DNA of 64,000 nt, taken from Pseudomonadota bacterium (GTDB taxonomy: Bacteria > Pseudomonadota > Gammaproteobacteria > Burkholderiales > Nitrosomonadaceae). The notes beneath the pieces were generated by a model that ran no database searches, was not told the DNA's origin, and saw only the letters and a list, made by a program, of their open reading frames with translations. The DNA is taken from positions 46,210 to 110,209 of the forward strand of contig JAFEGA010000001.1 in NCBI GenBank assembly GCA_018240285.1, given 5' to 3'. The translations under genes were made by a program, and so were the position numbers. Numbering within the stretch: the first letter of the stretch is position 1; each line of letters begins with the position of its first letter. This document shows positions 19,419 through 27,230 of the stretch, in pieces.

Positions 19419-19677
19419 AGAAGTCGAAATTGTCAACAAACTGGGGTTGCATGCACGCGCTTCCGCGAAGCTGACCAAGCTGGCCAGTCAATTCAAATGC
19501 GAAGTCTGGGCAACGCGCAATAACCGCCGCGTGAATGCGAAAAGCATCATGGGGGTGATGACGCTGGCGGCCAGCAAAGGCTCGCGCATACAGCTCGAAA
19601 CCGACGGCGATGACGAAACCGAAGCAATGGCGGCACTGGTGGCGCTGGTCGAAGATTATTTTGGCGAGGGCGAATGA
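19408..19677 (+). CDS. ptsH: Phosphocarrier protein HPr
   Basis: Carries phosphate from EI to EIIA. The 89-residue protein has the EI-accepting histidine at position 15 (KLGLHARASAKL) and a serine at position 46 in VNAKSIMGVMTL, the site of HPr kinase control. Both regulatory sites are therefore intact. The ATG at 19408 places H15 and S46 at the standard numbering, deciding against the frame-open ATG at 19393. It overlaps the EIIA gene by 11 bp and ptsI by 4 bp. Confidence 0.93.
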   Translation: MQIKEVEIVNKLGLHARASAKLTKLASQFKCEVWATRNNRRVNAKSIMGVMTLAASKGSRIQLETDGDDETEAMAALVALVEDYFGEGE

Positions 19678-21407
19678 GCTTTATTCTGCAAGGTATCGGG
19701 GTATCGGAAGGCATCGCCATCGGCCATGCGCATCTGGCCGCGCCAGCCGCGCTGGAGGTGATGCATTATCTGATCCCCAAGCATCAGGTGGAGAAGGAAA
19801 TCGCCCGGCTGGACAGTGCTTTTGCTGTCGTGCGCAAAGAATTTGAAGTGCTGCAAAAATCCGTTGCCGACGGGCATGCGCGCGCGGAATTCAGCGCATT
19901 CCTGGATTTGCATTTGATGATTTTGGACGATCCGACGTTGTCCGAAGCGACGCACAGTATGATTGCGCAGACGCTATGCAACGCGGAATGGGCGTTGACG
20001 CAGCAGATGCAGGTGCTGCTGGCGCAGTTCGAGGAAATCGAGGATGCCTATTTGCGCGAACGCAAGGCCGACGTGGTTCAGGTAGTTGAGCGCGTGCTCA
20101 AGGCGATGCTGGGACATCCCGGTTATTTGCCTGTGGCGTCGCGGCTGACCGGCGATAGTATTCTGGTGGCGCATGACTTGAGTCCCGCCGATGTGATGCA
20201 ATACAAACAGCATCAATTCACCGCCTTTCTGACCGACCTGGGCAGCCAGACGTCGCATACCGCGATCGTGGCGCGCAGCCTCAACATTCCTTCGATCGTA
20301 GCGCTGCATCACGCGCATCAATTGATTGTCGAGAATGACTATCTGATCGTCGACGGCACGCATGGCATTATCATCGTCAATCCGGATAAATACGTTCTCG
20401 ATGAGTACCGCCTGCGGCAAAGCCAGCTCGAGCTGGAAAGGAAAAAACTCCAGCGCATCAAAAGCATTGCGGCGATGACGCTGGACGGTACGCTGATCGA
20501 TTTGCACGCCAACATCGAGCTGCCGGAAGACATCGTGCAAGTGAAAGAAAACGGCGCGACCGGTATCGGCTTGTTCCGCAGCGAATTCTTATTTCTGAAC
20601 CGCGACGATCTGCCGGGCGAGGACGAGCAATTCGAAGCATACCGCACCGTTGCCGCCAAAATGCACAAGCAGCCGGTGACCATCCGCACGTTCGATCTGG
20701 GTGCGGACAAAAACCTGAAAGGCAGTGAGCAAGTGGCGGCTAATCCCGCGCTGGGGTTGCGTGCGATCCGCCTGAGCCTGGCGGAACCAAAAATGTTTCA
20801 CACGCAGTTGCGTGCCATTTTGCGCGCTTCCAAGCACGGCGACGTGCGCATTCTGGTGCCGATGCTGTCCAACGCCGCGGAAATCGATCAAACGCTGGTG
20901 CATATCGAATACGCCAAACAAACCCTGCGCGATGACAAAATCGATTTCAACGAGCATATCAAAGTCGGCGGCATGATCGAGATCCCGGCGGCGGCGCTGA
21001 GTCTGGAGTTGTTCATGCGCAAACTGGATTTTTTGTCGATCGGCACGAATGACCTGATTCAATACACATTGGCGGTGGACCGCATCGACGACACCGTGGC
21101 GCATCTGTACGATCCATGCCATCCGGCGATTTTGTGGCTGGTTTCGCACATCATTCAGAGCGCCAACCGCGCCAAGGTGCCGGTATCAATTTGCGGGGAA
21201 ATGGCGGGCGACAAGCAATTTACGCGATTGCTGCTGGGCTTCGGCTTGCAACAGTTTTCCATGTACCCGGCGCAGCTATTGACAGTCAAAAATCAGATAT
21301 TGAAAAGCCATTTGCCCGATATTATTCCGCTGGCGCAGAAAATCATTAAAGCCGATCAGCCGGAAAAGATCGCCGCGTTGCTGGCGAAGTTGAATGACGG
21401 GGTTTAG
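19674..21407 (+). CDS. ptsI: PTS enzyme I
   Basis: Phosphoenolpyruvate-protein phosphotransferase (577 residues) that feeds the HPr relay. The N-terminal HPr-binding and phosphohistidine domain contains the active histidine H195 in GSQTSHTAIVARSLNIP. The PEP-binding barrel shows the GIGLFRSEFLF segment, the GGMIEIPAAAL and SIGTNDLIQYTLAVDR segments, and the catalytic cysteine in VSICGEMAGD. The ATG overlaps the ptsH stop (ATGA). Immediately after its stop begins the remnant restriction locus. Confidence 0.95.
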   Translation: MSFILQGIGVSEGIAIGHAHLAAPAALEVMHYLIPKHQVEKEIARLDSAFAVVRKEFEVLQKSVADGHARAEFSAFLDLHLMILDDPTLSEATHSMIAQTLCNAEWALTQQMQVLLAQFEEIEDAYLRERKADVVQVVERVLKAMLGHPGYLPVASRLTGDSILVAHDLSPADVMQYKQHQFTAFLTDLGSQTSHTAIVARSLNIPSIVALHHAHQLIVENDYLIVDGTHGIIIVNPDKYVLDEYRLRQSQLELERKKLQRIKSIAAMTLDGTLIDLHANIELPEDIVQVKENGATGIGLFRSEFLFLNRDDLPGEDEQFEAYRTVAAKMHKQPVTIRTFDLGADKNLKGSEQVAANPALGLRAIRLSLAEPKMFHTQLRAILRASKHGDVRILVPMLSNAAEIDQTLVHIEYAKQTLRDDKIDFNEHIKVGGMIEIPAAALSLELFMRKLDFLSIGTNDLIQYTLAVDRIDDTVAHLYDPCHPAILWLVSHIIQSANRAKVPVSICGEMAGDKQFTRLLLGFGLQQFSMYPAQLLTVKNQILKSHLPDIIPLAQKIIKADQPEKIAALLAKLNDGV

Positions 21408-21445
21408 TGCTGTGTACGCAAATAGACAGTTTTGCCACTTATTCG

Positions 21446-21612
21446 ATGACAACCGCAGAATCGCAGATTGAACAAAACTTGATCGCCAAGCTGGGCGAAC
21501 TCAAATACACCTCCCGCCCGGACATTCGTGACAAGGCTGCGCTTGAGCAGAATTTCCGCGACAAGTTCGAAGTGCTGAATCGCGTTCATCTCACCGATGC
21601 AGCAGCTTTTCC
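21446..21612 (+). pseudogene. hsdR: HsdR 5' stub (type I restriction subunit)
   Basis: From the ATG at 21446 the frame encodes about 55 residues matching the start of type I restriction endonuclease subunit R: TTAESQIEQNLIAKLGELKY, then RPDIRDKAALEQNFRDKFE and LNRVHLTD. After about 21605 the resemblance ends; the frame runs on to a stop near 21697 through unrelated sequence that overlaps the HEPN gene. Intact HsdR has about 1000 residues with nuclease and helicase domains, so over 90 percent is gone. The junction, not a point mutation, is the lesion. Confidence 0.75.
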
Positions 21613-21636
21613 CGGACATGGGTTAGGGGGTGAAAG

Positions 21637-23190
21637 ATGGGTAGGCAACTGGATAACTATTCGCCGCTTGAATCACTGCATCATATTGCTACGCTGATTG
21701 ATGACGCTACTGATAATGCGCTACCTGAGAAAGCGCAGCAGGCGCTTCAGCTTTGTGATGCATTGGAGAAGCGTCTCGATGCACGGCAATTAGTTGAACT
21801 TAATTATTTTCGGGCCAATGCGTGGTCGGTGATTCGACATGCAAAGCACTGTGACGAATCGAAAGTGTGGGAATGGGATCAGCCCGAGATTCTGCACGAG
21901 ATTTTCTGTTTGCGTTCCGCCGTGCGATCTGCCGAATTTGGATCGCATGAACCGTTTAGGCAATGTCAAATACTCGTCAATGCTGGCAATATATTCAGCC
22001 ATATAGGGCGACCGATAGAAGCGGTTGAATACTGGAATCGCGCACTTGGGTTAATGCCGAATTTTGCGATGGCGCTTGGCAATCTCGGCTTTGGCCTGGA
22101 ATCTTATGCGAAATACCTTTATGACCCAGGCCATCAGGGTGTAATTCTGAAAGAAGCCTGTAATTTCCTCAAGTCAGTTGCCGAGCCTAGTGCTGTTTGG
22201 GACAGTTACGATTATCAGCGAATCATAGAGAGCATGCTGGGTAGGGCTCAAAGTATTGAATCTCGCGTCGATTTTAGCTATCTGGAGAACATTTCACTTT
22301 ATGAGCACTCGCTTGGACGGTCGAAAGTGGAACGTAATTATCGTGCATGGGCATTAGGTAATGGATTATTCCTGTCACCTCTTAATGATCTAGGCGCGTA
22401 TCCCATTGCAGCCCATGATGTACTGCATTTGCCCCCAATGGTTCGGCCAATTTCAGAGCCGCCGCACTTTATCGGTTTTTTTAACCAGCTAAAACAAGAA
22501 TATGTATCCGCCCGCTTTTTGTGCTGGCAAGGCATAGTGGAGTCTGAAGCCTATAAGAAGCACTACTCGGATAAGAAGACCCTGCTGCTGAATACATTGG
22601 ATTATCCTGTGTATTCAGTATTTATAGAGCAGGTCAAGCTTGCATTTCGGATGGCGTATTCGCTATTCGACAAAATCGCGTTCTTTATCAACGAGTACTG
22701 GTTGCTAGGCATGCGAGAGAGCTCGATTAATTTTCAGTCTATTTGGTTTGAAAGCGGCACCAAGGATAAACCAAAGGTTTTACGTGCCAGCTTTCAAGCA
22801 CGTCAAAATCTACCCTTGAGAGGGCTTTACTGGCTAAGCAAGGATTTTGTTGAATCTGATAAAGATAGTGTTGTTTTGGGTGAAACTATGGAGCCAGATG
22901 CATACAAGTTACGCTCAATCCGAAACCATTTAGAGCATAAATATCTTAAAGTCCATGATGATTTGTGGAGCTATACCGATCATCCCGATAATGCATTGTT
23001 TGGCGATCAATGGGCTTTTCATTTGTCGATGCAAGAGCTAAACAAAAAAACGATAAGAATATTGAAAATGGCTAGGGCTGGGCTGACTTATTTGTCACTT
23101 GCTGTGCATCGGGAGGAAAATATTCGCAGTTCTCAGATGCCGGATAAGATCACTGTTCCTATGGCACTGCCAAGATGGGAGCATTTTTGA
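21637..23190 (+). CDS. HEPN-domain protein, LA2681-like, with TPR-like N-terminal half
   Basis: Protein of 517 residues. The N-terminal half is helical with a TPR-like segment (about 105-165). The C-terminal half is HEPN-like: helix-rich and carrying the RX4H motif RNHLEH (R429-H434), the active-site signature of HEPN ribonucleases. It resembles the LA2681 HEPN family as I recall it. HEPN proteins in this setting are often RNA-cutting defence effectors; PrrC and RloC, which also use HEPN chemistry, reside in type I restriction loci. The ATG has a strong AGGGGGTG ribosome site. The gene is visibly AT-richer than rhuM and hsdM, suggesting separate acquisition. Its TGA overlaps the hsdS stub's ATG. 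Confidence 0.7.
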   Translation: MGRQLDNYSPLESLHHIATLIDDATDNALPEKAQQALQLCDALEKRLDARQLVELNYFRANAWSVIRHAKHCDESKVWEWDQPEILHEIFCLRSAVRSAEFGSHEPFRQCQILVNAGNIFSHIGRPIEAVEYWNRALGLMPNFAMALGNLGFGLESYAKYLYDPGHQGVILKEACNFLKSVAEPSAVWDSYDYQRIIESMLGRAQSIESRVDFSYLENISLYEHSLGRSKVERNYRAWALGNGLFLSPLNDLGAYPIAAHDVLHLPPMVRPISEPPHFIGFFNQLKQEYVSARFLCWQGIVESEAYKKHYSDKKTLLLNTLDYPVYSVFIEQVKLAFRMAYSLFDKIAFFINEYWLLGMRESSINFQSIWFESGTKDKPKVLRASFQARQNLPLRGLYWLSKDFVESDKDSVVLGETMEPDAYKLRSIRNHLEHKYLKVHDDLWSYTDHPDNALFGDQWAFHLSMQELNKKTIRILKMARAGLTYLSLAVHREENIRSSQMPDKITVPMALPRWEHF

Positions 23191-23312
23191 TGGGTATCCC
23201 TGCACACCCACTGAGTGTTGCGCAGACGGAAAAAGTCGACATCCTTAAAGCCTATAAAAAAGGGCCGATGCAGAAGCTTTTTCCGACCATGAATGAGGTG
23301 GTGGGTGCATGA
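23190..23312 (+). pseudogene. hsdS: HsdS 3' stub (specificity subunit C-terminus)
   Basis: Forty codons ending MQKLFPTMNEVVGA. The portion ILKAYKKGPMQKLFP matches the C-terminal helix typical of type I specificity subunits (consensus around AYKKGLMQQLFP). Everything upstream, including both target-recognition domains, is missing and replaced by the HEPN gene, whose stop overlaps this ATG. Its TGA overlaps the rhuM ATG by 2 bases, an arrangement probably inherited from the intact hsdS-rhuM pair. Confidence 0.65.
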
Positions 23313-24328
23313 GCCAGCTTATCCTTTACACCAGCGAAGACGGGCAAGCCCAGGTGCAACTGCGTGCCGACCGGGGCACGGTCTGGCTCAGCCAGCGGCA
23401 AATGGCGGAGCTGTTCGATGTTTCGCCGGACAACATCGGCCTGCATCTGAAAAACATTTTTGAGGATGGTGAGCTGCAACGCAAGGCAACTACCGAGGAA
23501 TCCTCGGTAGTTCAAATCGAGGGTGCTCGCGAAGTACGCCGCACCCTCACGCACTACAACCTAGACGCCATCCTGGCCATAGGCTACCGCGTGCGCTCGC
23601 CGCGCGGGGTGCAGTTTCGCCGCTGGGCCAGCACGGTGCTGGCGGAATATCTGCGCAAGGGTTTCGTCATGGACGACGAGCGGCTGAAGAATCCCGATGG
23701 CCGCCCGGACTATTTCGACGAGATGCTGGCGCGCATCCGCGACATTCGCGCCTCAGAAAAACGCTTCTATCAAAAAGTGCGCGAGCTGTTCGCTTTGGCG
23801 GCCGATTACGACAAGACCGACCAGGCCACCCAGCAGTTTTTCGCCACGGTGCAAAACCTGCTGCTGTATGCGGTGACGCAAAAAACCGCTGCCGAGATCA
23901 TCCTGGCCCGCGCCAATCCAGCCGATGCGCATTTCGGTTTGCTGACCTGGAAAGGCGAGCAGGTGCGCAAGCAGGATATCCTGATCGCCAAGAATTACCT
24001 GAGCGAAGACGAAATCGACACGCTGAACCGGTTGGTGGTGATCTTTCTGGAAACCGCCGAGCTGCGCGCCAAGCGGCAAACCATTACCAGCATGGCCTTC
24101 TGGCGCGAGAACGCCGGGCAGATCATTACCGCCAACGGTTTTCCCTTGCTGGCGGGCGCCGGTTTGGTCAGCCATGCTCGCATGGAGCAACAGATCGCCC
24201 CGCTGTTTATGGATTACGACCAACGCCGCAAAGCCGAGGAGGCACGGGCGGCGGATGAGCAAGATGATGCCGAGTTGAAGGCACTGGAAAACAAGATCAA
24301 GCACCGCAAGGATCACCCTCATGACTAA
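23309..24328 (+). CDS. RhuM family protein
   Basis: Protein of 339 residues of the virulence RhuM family, common beside type I restriction genes and in mobile islands but biochemically undefined. The N-terminal domain (about 1-110) has WLSQRQMAELFDVSPDNIGLHLKNIFEDGEL, resembling a DNA-binding or Bro-N-like helix-turn-helix, and a RRTLTHYNLDAILAIGYRVRS segment. The C-terminal half is helical and charged. It overlaps the hsdS stub and then hsdM by 8 bp, so it is co-translated with hsdM. A role in restriction control is plausible but unproven. Confidence 0.85.
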   Translation: MSQLILYTSEDGQAQVQLRADRGTVWLSQRQMAELFDVSPDNIGLHLKNIFEDGELQRKATTEESSVVQIEGAREVRRTLTHYNLDAILAIGYRVRSPRGVQFRRWASTVLAEYLRKGFVMDDERLKNPDGRPDYFDEMLARIRDIRASEKRFYQKVRELFALAADYDKTDQATQQFFATVQNLLLYAVTQKTAAEIILARANPADAHFGLLTWKGEQVRKQDILIAKNYLSEDEIDTLNRLVVIFLETAELRAKRQTITSMAFWRENAGQIITANGFPLLAGAGLVSHARMEQQIAPLFMDYDQRRKAEEARAADEQDDAELKALENKIKHRKDHPHD

Positions 24329-25934
24329 AGAAGAACTGAACCAACTCGGCAAAACCCTCTGGGGTGTCGCCGACCAGTTGCGCGGCGCGATGAATGCCGA
24401 CGACTTCCGCGACTATATGCTGTCGTTCCTGTTCTTGCGCTATCTCTCGGATAACTATGAAGCGGCGGCAAAGAAGGAGCTGGGTCGGGACTATCCGCAG
24501 TTGGCAGACGATGACCGGCGGGCGCCCTTGTCTGTCTGGTATGAGCAGAACGCCGGTGATGTGACCGATTTCGAGAAGCAGATGCGCCTTAAGGTGCATT
24601 ATGTGATCGAGCCGCAGTACCTGTGGAGCAGCATCTATGAGATGGCGCGCACGCAGCACGGTGACCTGTTGGATACCTTGTGGAAGGGCTTCAAGTACAT
24701 CGAGGAAAAGTCATTCGAGAGTACCTTTCAGGGGCTGTTCTCCGAAATCAATTTGCACTCCGAGAAGCTGGGCAAGAAACCGGCGGATCGCAATACCAAA
24801 CTTTGCGCCATCATTCAAAGGATCGCCGAGGGCATTGCCCAGTTCAGCACCAATACTGACATTTTGGGCGACGCTTATGAATACCTGGTCGGCGAATTCG
24901 CCGCCGGTTCGGGCAAAAAGGCGGGCGAGTTTTATACCCCGCAACAGATTTCCACCATTCTTTCCGAGATCGTCACGCTGGACAGTCAGGAACCCAAAAA
25001 CGGCAAAAAGAAAAACCTGAGCAAGGTGCTGGACTTTGCCTGCGGTTCCGGCTCGCTGCTGCTGAATGTACGCAAGCAGCTCGGGGCCCACGGCATCGGC
25101 AAAATCTACGGGCAAGAGAAGAACATCACCACCTACAACCTGGCACGCATGAACATGCTGCTGCACGGGGTGAAAGATACCGAGTTCGAGATTCACCATG
25201 GCGACTCGCTGCTCAACGACTGGGATATTCTCAACGAGATGAATCCGGCCAAGAAACTGCAATTCGATGCCGTGGTGGCGAATCCACCTTTCAGCTACCG
25301 CTGGGAGCCGAATGAGGCACTGGGCGAGGATTTCCGCTTCAAGAGCTATGGACTTGCGCCAAAATCCGCTGCCGACTTTGCCTTCCTGTTGCATGGCTTC
25401 CACTTCCTGAGCGACAGCGGTGTGATGGCGATCATTCTGCCCCACGGTGTGCTGTTCCGTGGCGGCGCCGAAGAACGCATCCGCACCAAGTTGTTAAAAG
25501 ACGGCCATATCGACACCGTGATCGGCTTGCCTGCCAATCTGTTTTTCTCCACCGGCATCCCCGTCTGTATTCTTGTGTTGAAGCGCTGCAAAAAGCCGGA
25601 CGATGTGCTGTTCATCAATGCCTCAGGTCCAGAAAATTTCGAGAAAGGCAAACGCCAAAACCGCCTGCTGCCGGAGCACATCGACAAGATCGTCGCTACC
25701 TATCAGTTCCGCAAAGAAGAAGCGCATTATTCGCGGCGGGTCGATATGGAAGAAATTGCCGCAAATGACTATAACCTGAATATCTCGCGTTATATCAGCA
25801 CGGCAAAACCGGAGGATGCAATTGTCTTGGCGGCTGTTCATGCGCAATTAACGGCGCTGGAAAAACAAATCAAGAATGCTACTGGGAAACATAATGAATT
25901 TCTTAAGGAATTGGGGCTGCCGCCATTGCCCTAG
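24321..25934 (+). CDS. hsdM: Type I modification methyltransferase subunit HsdM
   Basis: Adenine-N6 DNA methyltransferase of 537 residues. It has the helical N-terminal HsdM_N domain (1-150), the region entering the methylase domain GEFYTPQQI, the SAM-binding motif DFACGSGSLL (238-247) and the catalytic ANPPF (320-324). C-terminally the family helix region is complete. HsdM needs a specificity subunit to recognise DNA; no complete hsdS is present here, so activity would depend on an HsdS encoded elsewhere. It appears intact and is more GC-rich than the HEPN gene. Confidence 0.92.
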   Translation: MTKEELNQLGKTLWGVADQLRGAMNADDFRDYMLSFLFLRYLSDNYEAAAKKELGRDYPQLADDDRRAPLSVWYEQNAGDVTDFEKQMRLKVHYVIEPQYLWSSIYEMARTQHGDLLDTLWKGFKYIEEKSFESTFQGLFSEINLHSEKLGKKPADRNTKLCAIIQRIAEGIAQFSTNTDILGDAYEYLVGEFAAGSGKKAGEFYTPQQISTILSEIVTLDSQEPKNGKKKNLSKVLDFACGSGSLLLNVRKQLGAHGIGKIYGQEKNITTYNLARMNMLLHGVKDTEFEIHHGDSLLNDWDILNEMNPAKKLQFDAVVANPPFSYRWEPNEALGEDFRFKSYGLAPKSAADFAFLLHGFHFLSDSGVMAIILPHGVLFRGGAEERIRTKLLKDGHIDTVIGLPANLFFSTGIPVCILVLKRCKKPDDVLFINASGPENFEKGKRQNRLLPEHIDKIVATYQFRKEEAHYSRRVDMEEIAANDYNLNISRYISTAKPEDAIVLAAVHAQLTALEKQIKNATGKHNEFLKELGLPPLP

Positions 25935-26102: not shown

Positions 26103-27230
26103 ATGCAAGATTCAAAATCAGTCGGTGTGGTAACACCGCAGTACGTGCAAATCGACAAGCCATTGCAGCTGAAAAGTGGATTGTCGCTGGAGAGCTATCA
26201 CCTGGTTTATGAGACCTACGGGCAGTTGAATGCTGCGCGTTCCAACGCGATCTTGATTTGCCATGCGCTTTCCGGTAACCACCATGTAGCCGGTGTGTAC
26301 GCAGAAAATGAAAAGAGCATCGGCTGGTGGGACAACATGGTCGGTCCCGGTAAGCCGATCGATACCGATCGTTTTTTTGTCATCGGCGTGAATAATTTGG
26401 GGGGCTGTCACGGCTCCACCGGTCCCGCCAGTATCGATCCGCGCACCGGCAAGCAGTACGGTGCGAGTTTTCCGGTGGTGACGGTGGAAGACTGGGTCGA
26501 GGCGCAAGCGCAATTGGCCGAGCATTTAGGCATTGAACAATTTGCCGCCATTGTCGGTGGCAGTTTGGGCGGTATGCAGGCGATGCAGTGGACGCTCGAT
26601 TATCCGGAAAAAGTGCGCCATGCGCTGGTGATCGCAGCAGCGCCGAAACTGACCGCGCAGAATATCGCATTTAACGATGTGGCGCGCCAGGCGATCATGA
26701 CCGATCAGGAATTTTACGGCGGTAATTTTTACGCTTACGATACGTTGCCGCGCCGTGGGTTGCGTCTTGCGCGCATGTTAGGGCATATCACGTATCTGTC
26801 CGACGATTCGATGGCAGCGAAATTCGGCCGCAGTTTGCGCAAGGGTGAGCTTTCTTTCGGTTTCGATGTGGAGTTTGAAATCGAATCGTATCTGCGTTAT
26901 CAAGGTGATAAATTCGCCGATTTGTTCGACGCCAACAGCTACTTGCTGATGACCAAAGCGCTGGATTACTTCGATCCCGCCGCGGCATACAACGGCGATT
27001 TGAGCGCCGCGTTCCGGGCTGCCAAGGCGAATTTTCTGGTGATCTCGTTTACCACGGACTGGCGTTTCTCGCCGCAGCGCTCGCAGGAAATCGTCAAAGC
27101 GCTGCTGGACAATGCACTCAACGTCAGTTATGCGGAAATCAACTCCAGTCACGGTCACGACTCGTTCCTGATGGAGCCGTCCGGTTATCATCCACTGGTG
27201 CGGGCGTATATGGACAACATTGCGATTTAA
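26103..27230 (+). CDS. metX: Homoserine O-acyltransferase MetX
   Basis: Alpha/beta-hydrolase that activates homoserine for methionine synthesis using acetyl- or succinyl-CoA. The catalytic serine lies in [12 protein letters not shown], the aspartate in the [10 protein letters not shown] region, and the histidine in SSHGHDSFL near the end. Its 375 residues match the family. Which acyl donor is used cannot be judged by eye: MetX of many proteobacteria is a succinyltransferase. A TATAAT hexamer at 26046-26051 may be its -10 box. MetW follows at 8 bp, the conserved betaproteobacterial pair. Confidence 0.93.

Follow-up and report, generated by a model that had tools for sequence, protein, structure and literature searches.

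An intact HEPN gene among the remnants of a type I restriction-modification locus in Nitrosomonas

Organization of the locus

The DNA examined here, referred to as the window, is a stretch of 64,000 nucleotides from a Nitrosomonas genome (GenBank assembly GCA_018240285.1, contig JAFEGA010000001.1, positions 46,210 to 110,209), located on contig C11 of an assembly of 2.97 Mb in 48 contigs. Our subject is a locus of type I restriction-modification (R-M) genes lying between ptsI and an alpha/beta hydrolase gene at 26103-27230, here called metX, and in which an intact gene of the HEPN_LA2681 family is enclosed by remnants of hsdR, hsdS and, tentatively, darT. The present order is hsdR / hsdS end 1 - HEPN - darT start / hsdS end 2 - rhuM - hsdM. 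The relatives used are the 85 genomes of the genus of the window (Nitrosomonas, labelled G), and the fetched stretches around HEPN loci are labelled L (L041 being a contig of Nitrosomonas G086). The features, with lengths in base pairs (bp) or amino acids (aa), are:

19674..21407, forward strand: ptsI (phosphotransferase system enzyme I), left flank; Pfam PEP-utilizers domains, DNA match in 83 of the 85 genus genomes
21446..21600, forward strand: 5' stub of hsdR, 51 codons; PADLOC REase_I, 88.6% DNA identity to hsdR of G021
21596..21600, forward strand: GATGC, common to hsdR and hsdS at their join; comparison with G021, G054 and G086
21596..21626, forward strand: hsdS 3' end no. 1, the final nine codons (MQQLFPDMG) and stop; compared with the end of the intact hsdS of G086
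21627..21636, forward strand: spacer GGGGTGAAAG, with a likely ribosome-binding site; same ten bases in G086
21637..23190, forward strand: HEPN_LA2681 gene, intact, 517 aa, motif RNHLEH (Rx4H, R429/H434); PF18733
23190..23210, forward strand: seven codons, MGIPAHP, a tentative remnant of a darT start; compared with the DarT starts of L122 (MTIPAHPK) and L043 (MTVPAQPK)
23209..23312, forward strand: hsdS 3' end no. 2, stop included, which overlaps the start of rhuM; PADLOC Specificity_I, blastn to hsdS genes
23309..24328, forward strand: rhuM, intact, 339 aa; PF13310, PADLOC PDC-S05
24321..25934, forward strand: hsdM, intact, 537 aa; TIGR00497 above cut-off
26103..27230, forward strand: alpha/beta hydrolase gene ("metX"), right flank; PF00561 E 5.7e-24, DNA match in 83 of the 85 genus genomes

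The preliminary description of this DNA had recognized the 5' end of hsdR and the 3' end of hsdS as short pieces on either side of one unrelated intact open reading frame (ORF), with hsdM and rhuM intact. Both pieces are borne out by profile searches: in PADLOC the hsdR stub falls on positions 4-53 of the 976 in the profile for type I restriction enzymes (E 6.9e-11), and as DNA it matches hsdR of G021 (88.6% over 21443-21600), and hsdS stub no. 2 matches the PADLOC specificity subunit profile (E 1.6e-6, profile positions 389-418 of 420), whereas scans with Pfam and NCBIfam returned no hsd match for either stub. HsdM (TIGR00497 above cut-off) and RhuM (PF13310, E 1e-104, 349.7 bits against a cut-off of 33.7) are indeed intact. 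The enclosed HEPN ORF is intact as well, but it is not a stranger to such loci, the same gene standing behind a complete hsdS in G086. Two features lie beyond that first map, namely a second hsdS 3' end ahead of HEPN (21596-21626) and the darT-like codons at 23190-23210. Of the genes that a functional type I R-M system needs, hsdM is complete, hsdS is represented by 3' ends only, and hsdR by 51 codons.

The two joins

The reading frame of the hsdR stub continues past the HEPN start to a stop at 21695-21697. The hsdR genes of G021, G054 and G058 align with the window up to 21600 (elsewhere the limits are 21598 in G046, 21582 in G086, 21612 in G007 and 21614 in G023), and the hsdS/HEPN DNA of G086 aligns from 21596; therefore, hsdR and hsdS have five bases, GATGC, in common at the join. 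The sequence GATGCAGCAGCTTTTCCCGGACATGGGTTAG upstream of the window HEPN contains the final nine hsdS codons and the stop, followed by the ten-base spacer of G086. An overlap of at least 5 bp at a random join has a chance of about 0.005 by formula, a rough figure because relatives stand in for the true parents of the join. The passage from hsdR codon 51 to the last nine hsdS codons is thus likely a deletion with a 5-bp overlap.

On the right-hand side, the HEPN stop overlaps the next start (TGATG), which opens the codons MGIPAHP. In Marinobacter sp. ELB17 (L043) a darT gene (PF14487, E 4e-61) follows HEPN with the same TGATG overlap and begins MTVPAQPK, and the darT of Nitrosomonas G010 begins MTIPAHPK. 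Among the 41,209 ATGs of 80 HEPN loci, a single one, that of the ELB17 darT, opens a sequence of the form M-x-[IVM]-P-[AT]-[HQ]-P; this count measures rarity only, because the pattern was drawn up after both sequences had been seen. Judged from this resemblance, the codons at 23190-23210 are likely, if tentatively, the remnant of a darT start. A complete darT is not present, as there are seven darT-like codons and no PF14487 match in the genome (darG was not searched genome-wide). The hsdS end no. 2 that follows matches all nine hsdS genes tried with blastn, the earliest match starting at 23209, and it runs into rhuM.

The HEPN protein

The HEPN ORF matches PF18733 (HEPN_LA2681) with E 3e-75 and 252.5 bits against a cut-off of 27. 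Its motif is R429-N430-H431-L432-E433-H434, of which R429, N430, E433 and H434 are invariant in 34 sequences, and the protein shows no departure at the 70 positions that are invariant among the other 33 relatives. Replacement and silent changes number 9:15 on the window branch and 14:8 on the G086 branch, with 52 not polarised. The HEPN gene is under constraint. The N-terminal half of the protein is helical; TPR_1 and TPR_2 matches reach E 0.007-0.008, below cut-off, and the best Foldseek matches in the PDB are mostly TPR proteins, none reaching E 0.001. The AlphaFold model has a mean predicted local distance difference test (pLDDT) score of 77, and the Pfam scan found no ABC ATPase domain in the protein. 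The protein is predicted to be an RNase.

HEPN relatives and their link to type I loci

HEPN relatives are found in four of the 85 genus genomes, namely the window's own, G086 (90% identical over the full length), G073 (39%) and G004 (a short match). G086 has hsdR (992 aa), a Bro-N gene, hsdS (419 aa) and HEPN in this order, all open over their full length, followed by a rhuM piece without a start. The preliminary description had considered a relative in which HEPN already sits between complete hsdR and hsdS genes; G086 corresponds to this in sense though not to the letter, HEPN lying behind hsdS. The DNA of the window and of G086 match over 21596-23193 at 92.7%, against 72% for ptsI and 75% for metX, and because of this disparity the HEPN gene must have moved between lineages.

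Outside the genus, the HEPN proteins of Halomonas and Marinimicrobium loci are 76% and 75% identical to that of the window and occur together with complete hsdR, hsdS and hsdM. Marinobacter ELB17 (HEPN 71% identical) presents the order hsdR-hsdS-HEPN-darT-darG-rhuM-hsdM, its darG being identified by Macro. This run (L043 5626-16067), with an hsdR of EcoEI type, resembles an operon with several layers of defence. The G086, Halomonas, Marinimicrobium and Marinobacter loci rule out HEPN as an unrelated newcomer.

The link was counted in 80 loci kept of the 244 found in a contig search, with type I references from several families. Among loci whose HEPN is at least 47% identical to ours, hsdM, hsdR or hsdS was present in the fetched stretch in all seven, against three of the 73 below that value (Fisher p 4e-8; the loci are not independent). 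One of the seven, L047, has hsdM only, several kb off; the three of 73 rest on hsdM and hsdR references, L113 being a lone weak hsdR-like match. HEPN stands directly behind hsdS in L041, L043, L044 and L045 (with HsdS profile matches for L043, L044 and L045), whereas in L046 it is separated from hsdS by two further genes. In the Halomonas stretch L042 (9827-10000), 53 bp of an hsdM start are fused, with an overlap of about 8 bp, to a piece of an hsdS conserved region right before HEPN.

Further cargo accompanies the complete or near-complete relatives of the locus: an AAA_13 gene in G054, G058, G046, G002 and G007, a Bro-N gene in G086, G058 and G007, Fic in G046, DUF559 and YhcG in G002, HEPN in G086, and nothing but rhuM in G021. 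The hsdR and hsdM of G007 and the hsdM start of G021 look broken in the ORF lists. Mobile elements yielded few relatives of HEPN: one in 50,697 phage records and 20 in 72,556 plasmid records, all below 60% identity, and seven in viral contigs, at no more than 45% identity. A phage or plasmid origin was set aside, the relatives in phage, plasmid and viral records being few and distant. We found no report of a link between this LA2681 subgroup and type I loci in the literature searched, most subscription papers lying beyond its coverage.

The ptsI-metX site across the genus

Of the 83 matches obtained for each flank, ptsI and metX lie on one contig and strand in 78 genomes, and 72 of these have no more than 500 bp between the two genes, which leaves no room for the locus. 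Traces of hsd genes were found at the site in six genomes: the locus is complete in one of them, a second does not allow a judgement, and the remaining four have lost hsdR and hsdS while holding at least one whole extra gene. The intact relative looked for behind ptsI is G054, with a complete hsdR (1008 aa) - hsdS (428) - AAA_13 protein (381) - rhuM (336) - hsdM (535). The unjudgeable case is G023, where hsdR runs behind ptsI to the contig end and the end of hsdM lies ahead of metX on another contig; its locus may be intact.

Besides the window, the decayed genomes are G003, G057 and G072. In G003 the start of hsdR is fused to an hsdS end, and behind this fusion come a DUF559 gene, which is intact, a 78-bp piece of rhuM and the hsdM end. 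In G057 the final 53 bp of hsdR are left, together with a Fic gene that is intact and 87% like the Fic of G046. In G072, 20 hsdR codons are fused to the final 87 bp before the stop, and intact SMC-like ATPase and AlbA_2 genes follow; the SMC-like ATPase behind this collapsed hsdR has 880 aa and stands with the AlbA_2 gene (L144 2049-5836). From their position, and for Fic also from G046, we infer that the extra genes of G057 and G072 are cargo of a lost locus. The short genes DUF559 and Fic may have survived by chance, but HEPN and the G072 pair are long. Among the four decayed genomes, hsdM was retained in the window only.

These remnants bear on the possibility of an assembly error, in which a contig would have joined unrelated reads; this we hold to be very improbable, as the pieces are parts of a type I locus in colinear order, the flanks are typical of the genus, and three other genomes have similar remnants at the site.

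With the references of this analysis, no hsd remnant was found at E 1e-3 in the fetched stretches of G055, G063 and G075 (ptsI-metX distances of 986 bp in G055 and 529 bp in G075; flanks on different contigs in G063), a single 19-base match in G063 (E 0.009) being taken as chance. This remnant search left out G052 and G073, with flanks on different contigs, and the 72 short gaps were covered by the genus-wide search only.

The surviving rhuM and hsdM

The hsdM gene has a ratio of nonsynonymous to synonymous substitution rates (dN/dS) of 0.058 against G054, and its replacement and silent changes are 7:32 on the window branch and 8:41 on that of the intact G054, with 63 not polarised. Relaxed selection on hsdM after the loss of hsdS was rejected, there being no replacement excess on the window branch; therefore, the loss may be recent, or hsdM is still useful. 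A recent loss would account for a constrained hsdM for which no HsdS or HsdR of its family was found elsewhere in the genome. In rhuM the corresponding changes are 8:11 on the window branch and 17:29 on the G058 branch, with 48 not polarised. The locus is a mosaic, because the window rhuM is nearest to G058 and the hsdM to G054. By eye, the first third of rhuM (23309-23560) is unlike the G054 type and the remainder is alike, as if exchanged between loci.

When the genome was searched with the G054 proteins, a complete hsdR or hsdS of this family was not found outside the locus. Besides the stubs, the only matches were distant ones on contig C21, namely an HsdR with stretches of 28% and 42% identity and an HsdS of 27% identity; PF01420 also matches an HsdS-like ORF on C44. 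A second, distant type I locus of this genome lies on C21 (L031 6999-14000), with an HsdM of 815 aa. A partner HsdS acting in trans was rejected, no HsdS of this family being found elsewhere in the genome, a comparison outside which the C44 ORF falls.

One could suppose that HEPN, RhuM and HsdM still function together as a defence unit, that selection maintains the three genes as such a unit, and that HsdM makes use of an HsdS encoded at another locus. All three genes are intact, the window branch of hsdM resembles that of G054 in its 7:32 ratio (again with the 63 unpolarised changes), and HsdS-like ORFs do exist on C21 and C44. We nevertheless judge such a unit improbable, given the lack of an HsdS of this family, the HsdM of its own that the C21 set possesses, and the other inspected loci, none of which has HEPN, RhuM and HsdM without hsdR and hsdS.

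Decay of the locus

We consider it fairly probable that the window holds a decayed type I R-M locus in which HEPN, a resident passenger behind hsdS and predicted to encode a self-contained RNase, outlived the R-M core through a deletion with a 5-bp overlap. The ancestral locus would most likely have been larger, with the order hsdR-hsdS-HEPN-darTG-rhuM-hsdM that is seen in ELB17, whose hsd genes belong to another family. A first deletion would have brought codon 51 of hsdR up against the nine terminal codons of the hsdS ahead of HEPN, and a second event, at about 23210, would have fused the darT start to the 3' part of a different hsdS. The HEPN protein would sense infection via its helical, putatively TPR-like part, cut RNA and stop growth. 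HsdM, for which no HsdS of its own family was found in the genome, would no longer methylate DNA; with HsdM idle, defence would be left to RhuM and HEPN alone.

Several points weigh against this scenario. Two hsdS 3' ends flank HEPN, and one deletion cannot explain the second; therefore, either the ancestor already had two hsdS ends or a second event took place. The hsdR-hsdS-HEPN arrangement was found at the ptsI-metX site in none of the 85 genus genomes, and the G086 locus is neither at this site (its own ptsI-metX gap is 198 bp) nor whole, being broken behind HEPN, where the rhuM piece without a start is followed by the contig end. The darT remnant is seven codons long. The dN/dS of HEPN is 0.245 against G086, compared with 0.09-0.13 against more distant relatives. 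As to the predicted activity, pLDDT falls below 50 over residues 417-462, around the RNHLEH motif, so that the model adds little, and none of its Foldseek matches in the PDB reached E 0.001.

A single replacement would cover the darT codons together with the two hsdS tails. In this case a foreign fragment running from an hsdS end through HEPN to a darT start would have been inserted through two end joins into a resident hsdR-hsdS-rhuM-hsdM locus, with removal of the interior. The block at 21596-23193, 93% like G086 between flanks of 72% (ptsI) and 75% (metX), is consistent with such an entry. This account requires, however, two joins without long homology in a single event, and the hsdR/hsdS join of G003 at the same site is explained by a simple deletion; we therefore regard it as rather unlikely. 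The preliminary description had proposed that hsdR and hsdS were exchanged for a different effector: most of both genes is indeed lost and the methylase kept, but under the favoured scenario of decay HEPN was likely a resident, and an exchange proper would have to take the form of the replacement just described.

Relation to known systems

It is already known that type I loci carry defence genes. The RptR-RMS-DarTG-M48 island of enteropathogenic Escherichia coli (EPEC) is a type I R-M locus with embedded defence genes (PMC12255303). Like the window, it has foreign defence genes lodged beside hsdS, and the gap between hsdS and hsdR is described there as a potential hotspot of recombination (PMC12255303); the window differs in that its R-M core is broken, the passenger remains, and this passenger is a HEPN gene. 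The PrrC/EcoprrI system offers a second likeness, as a HEPN protein (an anticodon nuclease) is encoded within a type IC locus, and RhuM is noted beside PrrC-like and R-M genes in the same survey (PMC3710099). PrrC is, however, an ABC ATPase fusion held by the R-M proteins (PMC3710099), whereas the HEPN protein of the window has a putative TPR-like part and no ATPase, in a locus without complete hsdR or hsdS. With the LA2681 family (PF18733) it shares a full-length profile match and the Rx4H motif, and its TPR matches are weak and below cut-off. Table 1 of that survey lists this family as TPR-fused and in operon with TPR, with no R-M link (PMC3710099); the subgroup of the window, unlike this listing, occurs in type I loci.

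According to section 10 of the survey, HEPN nucleases in R-M loci are kept in check by the R-M proteins and released on R-M failure (PMC3710099). Under this guard model one would not expect HEPN to survive without HsdR and HsdS, except if its own helical part keeps it under control. Its intactness after the loss of hsdR and hsdS means that it either needs no R-M leash or is silent. As a tentative generalization, which we put forward as a possibility rather than an expectation, type I R-M loci may be landing frames outlived by their cargo (HEPN; DUF559; Fic; SMC-like ATPase with AlbA_2), as in four genomes with different breaks at one site, and this cargo, including the HEPN RNase, would work without the R-M proteins instead of being a leashed guard. 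As far as our searches go, the link between the LA2681 subgroup and type I loci is new, as is the repeated loss of the core with the cargo kept at one site. With one intact, four decayed and many empty states within one genus, the ptsI-metX site provides a natural series of defence-locus decay and gene retention.

Additional genes in a related locus

In the Marinimicrobium locus L044 (4964-8415), a RecQ-like helicase gene with a phosphoribosyltransferase domain and a DprA-like gene lie between hsdR and hsdS.

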